A stretch of 21,682 bases of DNA. It comes from a virus. The DNA lies in the IMG/VR virus record IMGVR_UViG_3300023174_000707, positions 1 to 21,682 of that record. The stretch is one strand, 5' to 3'. The position numbers were made by a program, and so were the translations under genes. Position 1 is the stretch's first letter, and every line of letters starts with the position of its first letter. Below the pieces are notes generated by a model. The model made no database searches, was not told where the DNA came from, and saw only the letters and a list, made by a program, of their open reading frames with translations. Positions 8,398-18,474 of the stretch are shown here, piece by piece.

Positions 8398-8752
8398 AAT
8401 TTTGATCTTCAGTTTTTAAATCCATTGGCTGTAAAGGTTCTTGTATATTTTGTTCTGGCATTTGTACAGGGATTTTAGGCTCAAATAGATTAGCTATTAT
8501 TTCTTCAGGGGTTTTACCTGAAGTCATTTGATTTGCAATATCTGGAACTAAAGAAGAATCAATATTATGTTTATTAATATATTCAACCATTCGCTTAGCT
8601 TGCTCGTCTAAACTTACAACTTCTTCTTTTCCATCTGGAAGAGTTACTATTGGGTTTTCAGCTCCCCATAATAAAATATCTTCTTGAGTGGCAGGATTAC
8701 CTTCAGCATCTAAAAAAATATGTAGATCTTTATCGTAAGTTAATGTGCTCAT
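8387..8752 (-). CDS. Acidic hypothetical protein after terminase
   Basis: A 121-residue acidic protein beginning MSTLTYDKDLHIFLDAEGNP, with IVTLPDGKEEVVSLDEQAKR and a low-complexity C-terminus rich in Pro, Gln and Met (PVQMPEQNIQEPLQPMDLKT). Its ATG overlaps the terminase stop as TAATG at 8752, so it is probably translated by re-initiation. There is no membrane segment or cysteine. The function is not recognised; a terminase or portal accessory protein would fit the position. Confidence 0.65.
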   Translation of the reverse strand: MSTLTYDKDLHIFLDAEGNPATQEDILLWGAENPIVTLPDGKEEVVSLDEQAKRMVEYINKHNIDSSLVPDIANQMTSGKTPEEIIANLFEPKIPVQMPEQNIQEPLQPMDLKTEDQNYGY

Positions 8753-10221
8753 TAATAGTACTCTCTGTTATCGTGAATAACTGGTTCATCTTCATAATCC
8801 TCAGGGTGACCTATAAAGCCTCCCTGTCTAAATCTCATTAATGCTTGTGTCATTGAGTCAACGAGGTCATCATGATCTCCAAAAGGAAATGCCGCGCATT
8901 CCTCAATAACCTCTTCTGCAAAATCAGCCTCAGGCGCCCAAATTTGTCCACTCTCAAAAAGAGGGGCAACAGCGTTTATTCTAGAATGTTTATCATTTCC
9001 TTTGCTGGGTGTAAAGTTGATAACAGGTATTCCCATCTTACGTAATTCATAAGTTAATGGTAATCCTGATGCTTTTGATTCCACTACAACTGAATCCGGT
9101 CGCCAATAGTAATACTGTTGTAATGCTTCACGTCTAAGTTCTGGAAACTCTAATCTTTTCTTTAATGCATCTAATAATATTAAATTCGGTCCACTATCCT
9201 CGGTTGGATAAAATACGCCCCAAGTTGTAATGGCTGAATAGTCGGCAGATTCTTTTTTTAAAAATGCAGTATCATAACTTTGAATGACATGTTCTAAAGC
9301 TGGAATATAATCTTTATCCCATCTACGCCACCATTCACGTTTAATGATTGAACCTTCTTCTGATGTTGGATTTTGCATCCATTGTGAATTCCATTTTTGT
9401 AAACTTAAAGATGCTTTAACTGATTCTAATTCAGATAATTTCCAATACTCTGGCCATACCGGTTTATTATTTGGAAGAATAGCTGGAAACTGAACCACTT
9501 CCCATTGATCAGACTTTAAACTTTTTTGAGCCCCGATCAACGCTCCGGTAAGATCTTTCAATGACCAACGTGTCATAACCACAACAATTTTTCCACCAGG
9601 TTGTAATCGCTGACGAGGACCTGAAGTATACCATTCATAAGCACGTTCCAGTGCTTCTGGATTCATAGCATCTTGTTCCGAGTGTGGGTCATCTATAATC
9701 AATAAATCCGCACCGCGGCCCGTGATTGCCCCACCAACACCGGCTGCAAAGTATTCACCTCCTTGATCCGTTTCCCAACGGCCCGCGGCTTGTGAATCTT
9801 CGCGCAATGTAGTTTTGAAAAATTTTTTAAAATCAGCACTATCAATTAAATGTTTTGCTTTTCTACCAAATCGTACTGCGAGTTCAGTCGTATGGGTTGT
9901 TTGAATAATTTTTAATTTTGGATTTTTACCTATCATCCAAGCAGGAAGTAAGAATGATGCAAACTCAGACTTAGTATGTCTAGGGGGCATATTAATAATT
10001 AATCTATTAATTTTTCCTTCTGCAAGCTTATTAAATTGTTCAGCAATTTTTTTATGATGTTTACCTTCAACAAAATCTGGCCAGACTGCTTTTACAAAAG
10101 ATAAAAAGTCTTTATTTACCTTTTCTTCTTTTATTTTTTCATCATACTTTACTGCATACTTCATGAAATCCTTACGCGCATCTGGCGGAAGTTTACTCAA
10201 GTCTACATCTTTCAAATTCAT
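8752..10221 (-). CDS. Terminase large subunit
   Basis: A 489-residue DNA-packaging motor with both domains. The ATPase has a Walker A at residues 78-86, MPPRHTKSE, where Thr replaces the usual Gly of PPRHGKS, and a Walker B at 173-178 (LLIIDD), followed by VVVMTRWSLKDLTG (214-226). The nuclease has acidic residues in SYDTA (D317), VVVESKASG (E381) and FGDHDDLVDS (D449-D455). It cuts concatemers and drives DNA through the portal using ATP. Length and motif order are normal. No ribosome site lies near the ATG; the 25 bases before it are only A and T, which leaves the start open, with a GTG or the internal ATG at residue 20 (after AAGGA) as alternatives. The small subunit is encoded on the other strand about 1.7 kb away. 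Confidence 0.95.
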   Translation of the reverse strand: MNLKDVDLSKLPPDARKDFMKYAVKYDEKIKEEKVNKDFLSFVKAVWPDFVEGKHHKKIAEQFNKLAEGKINRLIINMPPRHTKSEFASFLLPAWMIGKNPKLKIIQTTHTTELAVRFGRKAKHLIDSADFKKFFKTTLREDSQAAGRWETDQGGEYFAAGVGGAITGRGADLLIIDDPHSEQDAMNPEALERAYEWYTSGPRQRLQPGGKIVVVMTRWSLKDLTGALIGAQKSLKSDQWEVVQFPAILPNNKPVWPEYWKLSELESVKASLSLQKWNSQWMQNPTSEEGSIIKREWWRRWDKDYIPALEHVIQSYDTAFLKKESADYSAITTWGVFYPTEDSGPNLILLDALKKRLEFPELRREALQQYYYWRPDSVVVESKASGLPLTYELRKMGIPVINFTPSKGNDKHSRINAVAPLFESGQIWAPEADFAEEVIEECAAFPFGDHDDLVDSMTQALMRFRQGGFIGHPEDYEDEPVIHDNREYY

Positions 10222-10446
10222 AAAAATTTTTTATAAAATTTTTTCACCTTTTGATTTATTTATGAAAATGAATTTACACCCTCCCCCTGTCTAAATCAAG
10301 GTCTAAAGCCCCAACTCTAGGATCCCTTTTTCTGTTTTAGGGGGGTGGGGGGTCTTAGATCTTTCAAATTTCAAAATCGTATAGGGATTCAAGGTCAATG
10401 CCGGGTACGGACGTGGATGGGGTCTAGAGCGTGAGCCCGGCGGCGA

Positions 10447-10643
10447 GCCGCAACAGCGGCGAGACCGGGCGAACACCCGCGAAGCGGGGATGAGCGTCGC
10501 AACAGCGACGCTCCACCGACCGCGCCCCGCGAAGCGGGGAGAGCGCGCCGCAACAGCGGCGCACGACCCAATGCCCGCGAAGCGGGCAAGGAGAGCAGCG
10601 CAATAGCGCTGCACGATTGAAGGATGGCGAGCCGCGAAGCGGC
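10447..10643 (+). repeat. Alternating array of eight perfect hairpins (AACA/AATA tetraloop, GAA triloop)
   Basis: Eight hairpins alternate strictly by loop type. Tetraloops: 10447-10460 (GCCGC AACA GCGGC), 10493-10512 (8-bp stem AGCGTCGC, AACA), 10545-10562 (7-bp stem GCGCCGC, AACA) and 10595-10612 (7-bp stem GCAGCGC, AATA). Triloops: 10476-10488 (CCCGC GAA GCGGG), 10525-10539 (CCCCGC GAA GCGGGG), 10572-10588 (TGCCCGC GAA GCGGGCA) and 10631-10643 (GCCGC GAA GCGGC). Like elements are spaced 46-59 bp, so the unit is about 49 bp with two hairpins. Stem sequences differ but pairing is perfect, while loops are nearly invariant. An outer 6-bp pair, GCCCGG 10435-10440 with CCGGGC 10465-10470, encloses the first hairpin. 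Confidence 0.92.
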
Positions 10644-10690
10644 GAGCGCACAACCTAGAGTTGCATGTTGCGTTAGAGTAACACCGTTGC

Positions 10691-10908
10691 ATAATTACAA
10701 GCGCCGCGAAGCGGCGCCCCGACCCGCGGAGCGGGGTGCGACAATATGTCGCATTGACATCAATGTTTAAATAATTATAGGCGCGCGAAGCGCGCCCCGA
10801 CCCACAAACCGCGAAGCGGCGACCCTCGAGCACGCCAGCGCACAACCTATGCGCGAAGCGCGGACCGCTTACATCGCAGGCGAGCCTGCGACAATATGTC
10901 GCATTGAC
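10691..10908 (+). repeat. Second repeat block: hairpins in 80-bp and 150-bp spaced direct repeats
   Basis: Two copies of a module starting ATAATTAYARGCGC lie exactly 80 bp apart (10691 and 10771). Each has a 7-bp GAA hairpin (10701-10717 and 10780-10796) followed by GCGCCCCGACCC. Other hairpins: 10723-10735 (CCCGC GGA GCGGG), 10809-10819 and 10851-10861 (4-bp stems, GAA loop), and 10874-10891 (TCGCAGGC GA GCCTGCGA). A 22-bp sequence holding the palindrome TGCGACAATATGTCGCA and ending TTGAC is found identically at 10737-10758 and 10887-10908. A 13-bp word AGCGCACAACCTA at 10837-10849 also occurs at 10645-10657 in the first block. Confidence 0.9.
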
Positions 10909-10959
10909 TATTCGCGAATCGTTGATCTCGGATCATGATTCGTTTAGAAATATTTATTG

Positions 10960-10988
10960 TTGACTTATTGTTGATATGGGATTATATA
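10960..10988 (+). promoter_or_regulatory. Sigma70-like promoter, TTGACT-17-TATATA
   Basis: TTGACT at 10960-10965 and TATATA at 10983-10988 are separated by 17 bases, so transcription would start near 10995 and read rightward into the small membrane-protein gene at 11047. It lies directly at the right edge of the hairpin array. Boxes and spacing are close to the bacterial consensus. Confidence 0.7.
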
Positions 10989-11046: not shown

Positions 11047-11214
11047 ATGATTAATATATTAGAAAACTTATATGACATTCTTATGTCGGGCGTTTGTATA
11101 TCCGCCATCATCGCAGCGCTGTTCTATTGGTATGCGATTAGCAGAGACATGAGTGATAAAGACGATTTTGACAAGAAGTACCGCGAATCGCGGAACGTTA
11201 AAGGACGTTGGTAG
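11047..11214 (+). CDS. Small single-span membrane protein
   Basis: A 55-residue plus-strand protein, MINILENLYDILMSGVCISA then IIAALFYWYA, with one hydrophobic segment at about residues 11-31 and a charged C-terminus (SRDMSDKDDFDKKYRESRNV). AAAGGA lies 6 bases before the ATG and a near-consensus promoter ends 58 bases upstream, so this is a likely real gene although short. Its end overlaps the convergent nuclease gene by 17 bases. The codons for residues 45-49 contain the hairpin word CCGCGAATCGCGG. Predicted orientation is N-terminus out or in with a charged cytoplasmic tail; the role is unknown, and a small membrane toxin, exclusion protein or pinholin-like protein cannot be told apart. Confidence 0.65.
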   Translation: MINILENLYDILMSGVCISAIIAALFYWYAISRDMSDKDDFDKKYRESRNVKGRW

Positions 11215-11578
11215 TTTCCCCTAATAGTTTAGATTGAATCGCGGACCAGTCATTCTGGGCCGCGATTTTAGCTTTACGAATATCTGATTGTAGTTCGCGG
11301 ATCGCGGAGCTTTCATAAAGTATTACAGAAGAGGAAGAGGCTTCTTTTACTAAGATAAAGTTACGCTTTGTCATGGTTGTGTGGAACATGATCTGGTGAG
11401 GTGAAAGATGTATTTTATCACCTCGTGCAATCTTTAGTTCACACATAAAAAAACCACAAGAATCATTGTAACCCAACAAATCTGGAACACCAAATGATGA
11501 CCAAGATTCTAATCTTGTCCAAGAAATTTTAGGTGTATTTTTCTTAACTTGTTGCCAAAATTTAGACTCAGGCTTCAT
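11198..11578 (-). CDS. VRR-NUC-type PD-(D/E)XK nuclease
   Basis: A 126-residue nuclease. The core FGVPDLLGYNDSCGFFMCEL and K (D33, E47, K49) is the PD...ExK metal site; SPHQIMFH (Gln62) is the usual downstream QxxF helix of VRR-NUC/Holliday-junction-resolvase-like enzymes. Length is right for a stand-alone VRR-NUC domain. Such proteins cut branched DNA in recombination or before packaging; the substrate here is inferred, not visible. The start is 5 bases after the upstream stop. Near its 3' end an inverted repeat at 11237-11267 (AATCGCGG and CCGCGATT with an inner CCAG/CTGG) lies within the coding sequence. The gene ends inside the convergent small membrane-protein gene. Confidence 0.82.
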   Translation of the reverse strand: MKPESKFWQQVKKNTPKISWTRLESWSSFGVPDLLGYNDSCGFFMCELKIARGDKIHLSPHQIMFHTTMTKRNFILVKEASSSSVILYESSAIRELQSDIRKAKIAAQNDWSAIQSKLLGETTNVL

Positions 11579-11583
11579 CGTAC

Positions 11584-11820
11584 TTAAACGATTTGATTTG
11601 AACGAATAACTTTAGACATTTTATGTTTTTCTTTCTCAGTCTTTAAAACAATTCTATGAGTTTCAGTATTACCAATAAGCATATTTTCCATTAATCTTAT
11701 CTCTGCAATATCATGTAAATCACCATTAGGCATTTGAACTTGTATTCTTGCATTAGCTGCAACTTCAGACTTTTTAATAAATTTTTCTAATACTGATAAT
11801 AATGTTTTTCCGTGTATCAT
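11584..11820 (-). CDS. Small conserved hypothetical protein
   Basis: A 78-residue soluble protein: a basic helix (KTLLSVLEKFIKKSEVAANA), then strands including IQVQMPNGDLHDIAEIRLME, then HRIVLKTEKE. The form, VxMPNGxLHxIxEI, reminds me of a short unassigned protein common in marine phages. AAGGTGAT precedes the ATG by about 4 bases. It forms a two-gene unit with the VRR nuclease and diverges from the terminase small-subunit gene, with facing promoters in between. Confidence 0.7.
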   Translation of the reverse strand: MIHGKTLLSVLEKFIKKSEVAANARIQVQMPNGDLHDIAEIRLMENMLIGNTETHRIVLKTEKEKHKMSKVIRSNQIV

Positions 11821-11963: not shown

Positions 11964-12473
11964 ATGGGTGCTCCAAAACAATTAACAGAACGACAGATAA
12001 AATTTGCAGAGTTATTAGTTTTTAATGAAGGTAGAAAAACTAAAACTGAATGTGCTATGGAAGCTGGGTATGAAACAAGACCTAGACAAGCAGCACATGA
12101 ATTAACTAATCCAAAGATATCTCCATTAGTAGTTAAATACATAGGTGAGCTTAGAGAAGAAATGCAAAAGAAATATGAAGTTACATTTGAAAATCATATT
12201 GCTGAACTTGCAAAACTTAGAGAAGAATCCAGAGTTAAAGGTGCATGGTCTGCAGCAATCAATGCAGAAGTTGCTAGAGGTAAAGCTGCTGGATTATATA
12301 TAGATCAAAAGATTATTAAATATGGATCAGTTGATTCATTAACACCAGCTGAATTAGAAGCTAAGATGAAGCAAATATTAGAAGACCATAAAGGTCTCCT
12401 AGTAGAGGCTGATTTTGAAACTGTTAAAGAACAACAACCAAAATCTGAATCAAAAGTAATAGAACAAGATTAA
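11964..12473 (+). CDS. Terminase small subunit
   Basis: A 169-residue protein with the N-terminal helix-turn-helix pattern of the Terminase_2/P27-like small subunits: LTERQIKFAELLVFNEGRKT (residues 7-26), then ECAMEAGYETRPRQAAHELT, and SPLVVKYIGELREEMQKKYE. A helical oligomerisation region follows (HIAELAKLREESRVKGAWSA, AAINAEVARGKAAGLY), with an acidic C-terminus. It would recognise the packaging site and load the large subunit. It is on the strand opposite to the large subunit and about 1.7 kb from it, with the hairpin array between. There is no ribosome site before the ATG, and a promoter ends about 8 bases upstream. The stop shares TTAA (12470-12473) with the stop of the convergent gene. 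Confidence 0.85.
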   Translation: MGAPKQLTERQIKFAELLVFNEGRKTKTECAMEAGYETRPRQAAHELTNPKISPLVVKYIGELREEMQKKYEVTFENHIAELAKLREESRVKGAWSAAINAEVARGKAAGLYIDQKIIKYGSVDSLTPAELEAKMKQILEDHKGLLVEADFETVKEQQPKSESKVIEQD

Positions 12474-14474: not shown

Positions 14475-14939
14475 TTAAAGAACGTTTCTAACGTTTTGTT
14501 CAAACATATTTAATATTTTTTTATGTTCAGTCATCACAGTATTAAATTCATTATGTGAAAATGAATTTTTTTGAACAATATTGTTAAAAGAAGTTATTAA
14601 AGCTTTTCTACATTTATCAATAACTTCTAAATTTAAATCAATATATAAACCATTAGATTGTTCTTCTTTAATTTTATTTTCCTTGGCTTCTAAAGCATCT
14701 AAATATTGATCTAAATCTTTAAAATGTTTATCACCATCTTTAAAATGAAATCCATAACTTAAAAATGCTTCTTTTATTTCTTTTACAGATTTTCTGCCAA
14801 TATTAGGCATTCTTAAAAAATCATTCAAAGTATATTTATGTTTAAGGATATCTTCCATAGTAACATTATTTATCTTAAAGACTTCTAAGACTCGAGTACT
14901 AAAAGCCATGTCGTAGATTGTTAGATTATTTAAGTTCAT
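14475..14939 (-). CDS. RNA polymerase alpha C-terminal-domain-like protein
   Basis: A 154-residue protein whose residues 13-63 align with the alpha-CTD of bacterial RpoA: FSTRVLEVFKINNVTMEDIL, then FLRMPNIGRKSVKEIKEAFL. Compared with E. coli, R16 takes the place of R265, and N46, G48, K50, S51 and E54 match N294, G296, K298, S299 and E302, which bind UP-element DNA and activators; N268 is replaced by Glu. The rest (65-154) is a helical, charged region unlike RpoA, and there is no alpha N-terminal domain. A free alpha-CTD could bind promoter DNA or compete for host activators. TAAAGGAG precedes the ATG and a TTGACA promoter lies upstream. A general helix-hairpin-helix protein is the alternative. 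Confidence 0.78.
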   Translation of the reverse strand: MNLNNLTIYDMAFSTRVLEVFKINNVTMEDILKHKYTLNDFLRMPNIGRKSVKEIKEAFLSYGFHFKDGDKHFKDLDQYLDALEAKENKIKEEQSNGLYIDLNLEVIDKCRKALITSFNNIVQKNSFSHNEFNTVMTEHKKILNMFEQNVRNVL

Positions 14940-17623: not shown

Positions 17624-17759
17624 CTTTTTTATTTTCTTCTTCTTTTTTAACATATGACCAATCTATTTCGTCATAATTCTTTTTAAATGTTTCATCAGGA
17701 ATACGGCTTCTTCCATCCCAACCTTTACCCCATTCTGATCTTCTTTTATTTTGTTTCAT
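17613..17759 (-). CDS. Small charged protein, unknown function
   Basis: A 48-residue protein, MKQNKRRSEWGKGWDGRSRI then PDETFKKNYDEIDWSYVKKE and a Lys/Glu tail. A strong AAGGAG lies 8 bases before the ATG, which itself lies inside the last codons of the fusion gene at 17746-18474. Its stop overlaps the preferred start of the PD-(D/E)XK gene by 11 bases. Three Trp and many charged residues, no cysteine. The clear ribosome site and the double overlap make it a likely real gene; its function is not recognised. Confidence 0.65.
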   Translation of the reverse strand: MKQNKRRSEWGKGWDGRSRIPDETFKKNYDEIDWSYVKKEEENKKDDK

Positions 17760-18474
17760 AATATACTCCTTGGCAATTATTTTTTTCTAAAAAAGAATAA
17801 CCAATTTCTTTAAATTGTTTTATAAAATTATCTTTATCTTTAATATGAAACCATTCAGAAGCTGAAGAATCATATTTATCATTATAAGTTGAATATTCTT
17901 TAAAAAAATTATGAAAAGCTTTTTCTAAATTAAATCCATTCATAGATGTATATTTAAAACCACATATATAAGTTAATCCAAAGGGATTATCAGTTCTACC
18001 AGTTGATCTTTTATTAACATCTTCATGTGAAGTTCTACCTATTTTATAATGATTTGTTACATAAGGCCTTGATTCTGAAGCTAAATAAACATTAACTGTT
18101 TCCCCTAAACCCACACAGGAATATAAATCTTTAAATACTTTAACTGCTCTAGCAGCATGTTTATATCTATGATGTGAATTAAATCTCCAATCTTTTTTAA
18201 AATCATTCACGGCTGATTCTAATAAATCATTCATTAAAGATAAACTTCTAGTAAATTTAATTTTTTCTTCTTCTAATTTTTTTTCTCTAAGTTTTTCTAT
18301 ATAATTACAAACCAATGGATATCTATTTGGATTACGAAGTTCACTAGCTCTTACATAAGCAGAATCTTTATCATATCCTGCTTCTATTGCGCATTCTGTA
18401 GCTTTTTTTGAAGAATATAATAATAATTCTGCAAATTTTTTTTGTTTTTCTGTTAATTTTTTTTGTAAAGCCAT
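17746..18474 (-). CDS. Terminase-small-like domain fused to a T5orf172/GIY-YIG-like domain
   Basis: A 242-residue two-part protein. Residues 6-65 (KLTEKQKKFAELLLYSSKKA, TECAIEAGYDKDSAYVRASE, NPNRYPLVCNYIEKLREKK) are related to the N-terminal helix-turn-helix of the terminase small subunit at 11964-12473. After a helical linker, residues 127-225 read VNVYLASESRPYVTNHYKIG and RT, then R156/R160, LEKAFHNFFKE with E184, and SEWFHI, the layout of the T5orf172/MUG113 branch of GIY-YIG nucleases. Such a fusion could deliver a nuclease to the sequence bound by the HTH. No ribosome site is seen before the ATG. It follows the gene at 18479-18718 by 4 bases. It is very Lys/Asn-rich in keeping with its AT-rich neighbours. 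Confidence 0.75.
   Translation of the reverse strand: MALQKKLTEKQKKFAELLLYSSKKATECAIEAGYDKDSAYVRASELRNPNRYPLVCNYIEKLREKKLEEEKIKFTRSLSLMNDLLESAVNDFKKDWRFNSHHRYKHAARAVKVFKDLYSCVGLGETVNVYLASESRPYVTNHYKIGRTSHEDVNKRSTGRTDNPFGLTYICGFKYTSMNGFNLEKAFHNFFKEYSTYNDKYDSSASEWFHIKDKDNFIKQFKEIGYSFLEKNNCQGVYYETK

Follow-up and report, generated by a model that had tools for sequence, protein, structure and literature searches.

Hairpins that serve as promoters or as replication origins are already known. In N4, supercoiling extrudes hairpins with a sheared G:A loop; those on one strand persist in folded form, whereas SSB melts their counterparts on the other strand (PMC4496689). The DNA heptamer GCGAAGC, more generally GCGNAGC, is a known GNA minihairpin of extraordinary stability (titles of Hirao 1994 and Yoshizawa 1997 in the reference list of PMC11352879). 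In RSF1010, the AEP-like primase RepB' binds a 40-nt single-stranded DNA site that contains a hairpin (PMC4434180), and the origin of pRN1 is a stem-loop with a conserved structure and an unconserved sequence (PMC4234260).

The locus that we compare with these systems lies in a 21.7-kb IMG/VR fragment (IMGVR_UViG_3300023174_000707, 21,682 nucleotides; hereafter the window), which is without primase or helicase genes. Upstream of terL, the window holds a GC island at about 10380-10920, with 63% GC over these positions in a phage of 30-35% GC. A first-pass annotation of the window had reported eight perfect hairpins at 10447-10643, alternating between AACA/AATA and GAA loops in units of about 49 bp. 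We found all eight hairpins, where dinucleotide shuffles (n = 2000) gave a mean of 0.79 and a maximum of 5, and the spacings between successive AACA-type units are indeed 49, 51 and 50 bp. However, the array continues past 10643: further hairpins reach to about 10903, and the interval 10430-10910 contains 13 hairpins, compared with a mean of 1.72 and a maximum of 7 in dinucleotide shuffles. Its placement between the two terminase genes was correct but loose, as three other genes or ORFs also lie between terL and the terS-like gene. No other noncoding DNA seen in the 21.7-kb window is as structured as this locus, whose features are as follows.

8752-10221, minus strand: terL, terminase large subunit
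10271-10299, minus strand: predicted sigma70-like terL promoter, TTGATT-N17-TAAATT, conserved in relatives
10318-10327, no strand assigned: palindromic site TAGGATCCCT (AGGGATCCTA on the minus strand), counterpart of AGGGGTCCCA/AGAGGTACCA in relatives; centre about 24 bp upstream of the -35 element
10340-10352, plus strand: G-run GGGGGGTGGGGGG between the array and the terL promoter; relatives have a C/G-run of like kind
10447-10643, plus strand: core array, in which four tetraloop hairpins, C(AACA/AATA)G, alternate with four triloop hairpins, C(GAA)G; units of about 49-51 bp
10447-10460, plus strand: hairpin GCCGC-AACA-GCGGC
10476-10488, plus strand: hairpin CCCGC-GAA-GCGGG
10492-10513, plus strand: hairpin GAGCGTCGC-AACA-GCGACGCTC; a double change, T-A to G-C, in the orthologous stems of L004 and L124
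10525-10539, plus strand: hairpin CCCCGC-GAA-GCGGGG; loop GCA in L004, L112 and L124
10545-10562, plus strand: hairpin GCGCCGC-AACA-GCGGCGC; a double change in L112
10572-10588, plus strand: hairpin TGCCCGC-GAA-GCGGGCA; loop GCA in L004 and GGA in L124
10595-10612, plus strand: hairpin GCAGCGC-AATA-GCGCTGC; two double changes in L112
10631-10643, plus strand: hairpin GCCGC-GAA-GCGGC
10701-10717, plus strand: array continuation, hairpin GCGCCGC-GAA
10723-10735, plus strand: array continuation, hairpin CCCGC-GGA
10737-10753, with a second copy at 10887-10903, plus strand: hairpin TGCGACA-ATA-TGTCGCA followed by TTGAC, kept in relatives
10780-10796, plus strand: array continuation, hairpin GGCGCGC-GAA
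10811 and 10853, plus strand: shorter GCGAAGC cores
10960-10988, plus strand: putative divergent promoter toward the 55-aa ORF, TTGACT-N17-TATATA, seen by sequence inspection and not listed by the consensus scan
11047-11214, plus strand: 55-aa ORF beyond the array, kept in array-bearing relatives (42-91%)
11198-11578, minus strand: Holliday-junction-resolvase-like nuclease gene (weak PHROG match)
11584-11820, minus strand: small gene
11964-12473, plus strand: terS-like gene

A tie between the array and the neighboring resolvase-like gene was rejected, as that gene is also present in relatives without arrays. Elsewhere in the window, a second Terminase_2-like protein, fused to a MUG113 domain, is encoded at 17746-18474 (minus strand) besides the terS-like gene, and a small protein with a match to the RNA polymerase alpha C-terminal domain, which could act on host RNA polymerase, is encoded at 14475-14939 (minus strand). 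The 55-aa ORF itself contains a perfect palindrome, CCGCG-AAT-CGCGG, at 11181-11193.

HTVC023P-type phages infect SAR11 and are widespread in the ocean. By its TerL and gene order, the array carrier is a phage of this type: its TerL is 73-76% identical to those of Pelagibacter phage HTVC027P and phage 023Pt_psg01 and 61% identical to that of HTVC023P, and the order of the portal, GroES and capsid genes is common to the window and this group. We gathered 80 relatives by TerL and further ones by DNA patterns. Arrays, counted as at least three such hairpins directly upstream of terL, were found in 22 contigs besides the window, each with a different metagenome dataset number; the assembly artefact that the first-pass annotation had offered as a possible refutation is thus unlikely. 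The array-bearing clade is perhaps of a freshwater type, a guess from dataset numbers. The alternating type, present in the window, L004, L111, L112 and L124, is only one among several kinds. A wholly different set of stems, exemplified by CCCGGC-TTC-GCCGGG (terL sense), is found in L002, L003, L016 and L304, and these four retain spacers between the hairpins, such as GCAACGGTGTT..CTCTAACGCAACAT..CAACTCTAGGTTGTGCG. Because L304 shares 95% identity with the window in TerL and 91% in the 55-aa ORF, these data indicate that arrays turn over fast while their architecture is kept.

At the corresponding place, the more distant marine relatives often carry a lone hairpin whose sequence is unrelated. 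In the 60 nt upstream of the first palindromic site, the mean folding z-score across 45 distinct loci was -1.9, and 25 of these loci fell below -1.5; HTVC027P and HTVC023P have at most one hairpin at the array locus. The window array thus resembles an expansion of an older single hairpin. A nucleotide similarity search in phage records gave no match, and none of the Rfam 15 covariance models matched above its gathering score. Pattern matches occurred in 17 of 385 sampled bacterial genomes from one alphaproteobacterial class, a number comparable to that in a reversed control, and none formed arrays. We therefore rejected a host-derived repeat, as these were single chance matches only; the suggestion of a mobile palindromic repeat family, also raised at first pass, is not supported, given the same result and the confinement of arrays to one locus.

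Within the window, matched stem changes do distinguish the units, as had been noted, but these units are only paralogous, and relatives are needed to show covariation. We therefore ran the covariation check on five closely related phages. In this alignment, which is small and whose members are related, 51 pairs were covered and 97.6% of cells were paired; four pairs had changed on both sides, compared with 1.3 in shuffles, and the covariation score of 0.088 was reached in none of 500 shuffles (0.040 shuffled; 0.018-0.035 when the partner strand was slid by 1-3 columns). In another hairpin, a T-A to G-C exchange divides two groups of relatives. In a second test, sites were picked by the loop and two closing pairs only, and pairing of the outer bases was then scored. 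The terL-sense strand supplied 32 contexts of GCTGTTGC and 95 of GCTNCGC, for which outer pairing was above the shuffle mean at every position and exceeded the largest of 2000 shuffles at most positions (at pair 4, for example, 81 of 95 against a maximum of 60). Interior mismatches were absent from the tetraloop contexts and numbered four among the triloop contexts, a T-G accounting for a single one. In the core, three of the four double changes involve a transversion on each side and so did not pass through G-U. Together, the few interior G-U pairs and the transversions favor DNA hairpins over RNA, or one arm copied mutationally from the other; the initial proposal of selection in "DNA or RNA" can accordingly be narrowed toward DNA, which fits better. 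Covariation alone is no proof of selection, because template switching in hairpins during replication can also make and maintain matched changes without selection on the stem, although switching through the loop inverts the loop (PMC8794818).

The loops carry the stronger evidence. Among 129 context-distinct hairpins read in terL sense, 76 have TNC loops, 32 have TGTT or TATT loops and none has a GNA loop; the middle base of TNC may be any of the four. On the window plus strand, antisense to terL, these become C(GNA)G and C(AACA)G loops, with 32 AACA/AATA loops and none of the reverse form. When the cores were searched on both strands, the tetraloop core gave 32 matches against 0 and the triloop core 95 against 3. 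A free middle base between a fixed G and A is what would be expected of a sheared G:A loop. As switching through a loop inverts it, the near lack of inverted cores is the best sign we have that the strand of the loop matters. Strict loop polarity is thus stronger evidence for selection than covariation, although descent by tandem duplication could contribute to it. With fixed loop class and polarity added to the matched stem changes in relatives, the original reading of constraint on structure rather than on sequence is supported. Folding energies from ViennaRNA did not separate the strands for the triloops, under a parameter set that gives the GNA loop no bonus. The unpaired plus-strand bases of the window core number 51 A, 40 G, 30 C and 7 T, and T makes up 7.6% of the short linkers across relatives.

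The array adjoins a conserved region upstream of terL. Throughout the family, palindromic sites (AGGGGTCCCA, AGAGGTACCA and variants) occur there, often as two sites 61.5-65 bp apart, the closer of which lies some 24 bp upstream of the -35 element. They resemble activator sites, placed at roughly -60 and -123, and the promoter together with the sites (10271-10327 in the window and its counterparts in relatives; spacing about six helical turns) is likely the late-gene control region of HTVC023P-type phages, of which we found no description in the literature. Upstream of terL, L008, L012, L013, L015, L040, L047 and L083 carry one to three copies of a GGGCCCACCCACCCC motif, and the opposite strand of these repeats has G-runs that in some relatives fit a G-quadruplex pattern.

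Several explanations other than an initiation site compete for this pattern. It is rather unlikely, but worth weighing, that the array or single hairpin marks the upstream border of the late (terL) promoter; in variants of this idea, it ends or protects upstream transcripts, or absorbs supercoils beside a sigma70 promoter that depends on an activator and has two sites for it, spaced by about 63 bp. The family-conserved promoter with its spaced palindromic sites and the unrelated-sequence hairpins just upstream of the first site agree with such a boundary, as do several relatives in which a co-directional gene has its stop codon immediately before a hairpin. However, the hairpins are mostly without a U-run, and the nearest window gene, beyond the array, is divergent. 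A scan for intrinsic terminators (a GC hairpin plus a T-run) found two in 1.2 kb, against 1.2 expected, and none in the core array, and we set that class aside; moreover, a terminator needs no fixed loop class, fixed polarity or thirteen copies. We also consider it unlikely that the hairpins are GC-rich inverted repeats of little function, grown and kept perfect by template switching, in the manner of the GC-rich hairpin elements of AT-rich organelle genomes. This process is documented to make and maintain hairpins (PMC8794818), and it would explain why stems changed on both arms without intermediates and mostly by transversion, and why arrays differ wholesale between phages with 95% identical TerL (the window against L304 and L002). 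Yet it would invert the loop, and inverted cores amount to 0 of 32 and 3 of 98; the loops keep one class while N is A, C, G or T; comparable hairpins elsewhere in the same contigs number 16 against 129 in the array region; and distant relatives keep a hairpin at this position with unrelated sequences.

The remaining two alternatives concern RNA and packaging. A structured noncoding RNA transcribed from the plus strand, with many hairpins and A-rich linkers and acting, for example, as a decoy or regulatory RNA, would suit the A/G-rich, U-poor unpaired bases and the GNA and AACA loops of that strand. We nevertheless judge it improbable: it has no Rfam match, the consensus scan gave no convincing rightward promoter before the core array, and interior G-U pairs are nearly absent, unlike in typical structured RNAs. 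Least to be expected is a packaging site (cos or pac) recognized by terminase. The array does sit directly before terL, with terS about 1.3 kb away, at a conserved position, and many contigs end just upstream of terL. These ends, however, fall at differing places, several inside hairpins, as from assembly breaks, and the window and other contigs read straight through; we therefore rejected the idea that the genome ends at the array, which assembly breaks at hairpins explain better. To our knowledge, no packaging signal takes the form of a hairpin array.

We tentatively favor, by analogy with the systems introduced above, a noncoding element that works at the DNA level, an array of hairpins used as a single-strand initiation (origin-like) site. 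On this hypothesis, the array would work as hairpins in single-stranded or cruciform DNA, and only the window plus strand, with its C(GNA)G and C(AACA)G loops, would be meant to stay folded, the other strand presenting the reverse loops. Upon unwinding or supercoiling, the plus strand would keep a row of short, SSB-resistant hairpins with T-poor linkers between them, and the phage AEP-type (archaeo-eukaryotic-type) primase and UvrD-like helicase may then recognize the array and start DNA synthesis there. HTVC027P, HTVC023P and 023Pt_psg01 each encode an AEP-type primase (PF22548) and a UvrD-like helicase, HTVC027P also has a family A DNA polymerase, and the array-bearing contig of L004 contains homologues of the primase and helicase; the primase type is thus observed in the family and in one array-bearing relative, and the window fragment does not reach these genes. 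Among the replication genes of HTVC023P, HTVC027P and 023Pt_psg01 (L246, L247 and L250), the annotated primase matches the AEP-TOTE family and the ATP-dependent helicase is UvrD-like. A more specific version, that the phage origin is an array of strand-specific, very stable GNA-capped mini-hairpins that loads the AEP-type primase, with stems that turn over rapidly under fixed loop chemistry and polarity, is more doubtful.

Some observations weigh against an origin. The replication genes are not adjacent to the array, and the RSF1010 GTG start motif is absent from the short plus-strand linkers of the window core. As the best-known relatives, HTVC027P and HTVC023P, have no more than a single hairpin at the locus, an array cannot be essential for the family. 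Template switching could have built the matched stems without selection, and polarity could have been partly inherited through tandem duplication. GC skew in three complete genomes showed no turning point at the array locus, although this skew and the fourfold-site skew in the 21.7-kb window neither support nor refute an origin, and we found no mapped origin for any HTVC023P-type phage.

In the literature searched, whose coverage was incomplete, no tailed phage was described as having a multi-hairpin, strand-fixed GNA/AACA array. The papers searched on HTVC023P and HTVC027P do not mention hairpins, promoters or intergenic elements, and we found no account of how HTVC023P-type phages start replication, late transcription or packaging. 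The array offers a testable rule, namely that loop class and strand are fixed and that stems may vary as long as they remain paired. GNA mini-hairpins are known mainly from DNA chemistry and N4 promoters, and the array would be one of their rare uses in nature; it also provides a clean system for telling selection on DNA structure apart from mutation by template switching.

Compared with known systems, the array resembles the repetitive hairpin-forming elements of sponge mitochondria and organelle GC clusters in being made of GC-rich palindromes in a small, AT-rich genome, but it is not dispersed and has a strict loop class and polarity. With REP/BIME repeats it shares alternating hairpin types in extragenic arrays; it differs in that it shows no fixed foot tetranucleotide, occurs at one locus only and has no counterpart array in the sampled bacterial genomes. 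Since members of that class are dispersed in a host genome and carry a conserved foot, and here we found a single locus and a genome count near that of the reversed control, we do not place the array among them. The N4 vRNAP promoters are closer: they too have a GC-rich GCGRAGC heptamer, a 3-base loop with a sheared G:A pair, a variable but always paired outer stem and strand specificity (PMC4496689), and the GCGNAGC heptamer hairpin with a paired, variable outer stem is present in the array. The phage array, in contrast, has up to 13 hairpins, a second, AACA loop type and no fixed start site behind each hairpin. No single-subunit RNA polymerase turned up in the complete relatives: profiles of RNA polymerase families matched neither their largest proteins nor their whole records, in a search whose control also gave no match and with the window being a fragment; membership in the N4-type promoters was provisionally set aside on this result.

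The pRN1-family origin likewise conserves structure and not sequence in a replicon with an AEP-type primase (PMC4234260), but it is a single 100-nt stem-loop beside the replication gene and is associated with an SF3 helicase, whereas in the phages the mini-hairpins are numerous and lie near terL, and the UvrD-like helicase belongs to SF1. The RSF1010 sites ssiA and ssiB, finally, are one hairpin per strand with a GTG start motif, in contrast to many hairpins on one strand and putative primase binding in the phage; in both, a one-strand DNA hairpin stands in a replicon with an archaeo-eukaryotic-type primase, which in RSF1010 is the RepB' that recognizes it (PMC4434180), and the array displays the feature of such initiation sites, a hairpin of conserved structure on one strand.
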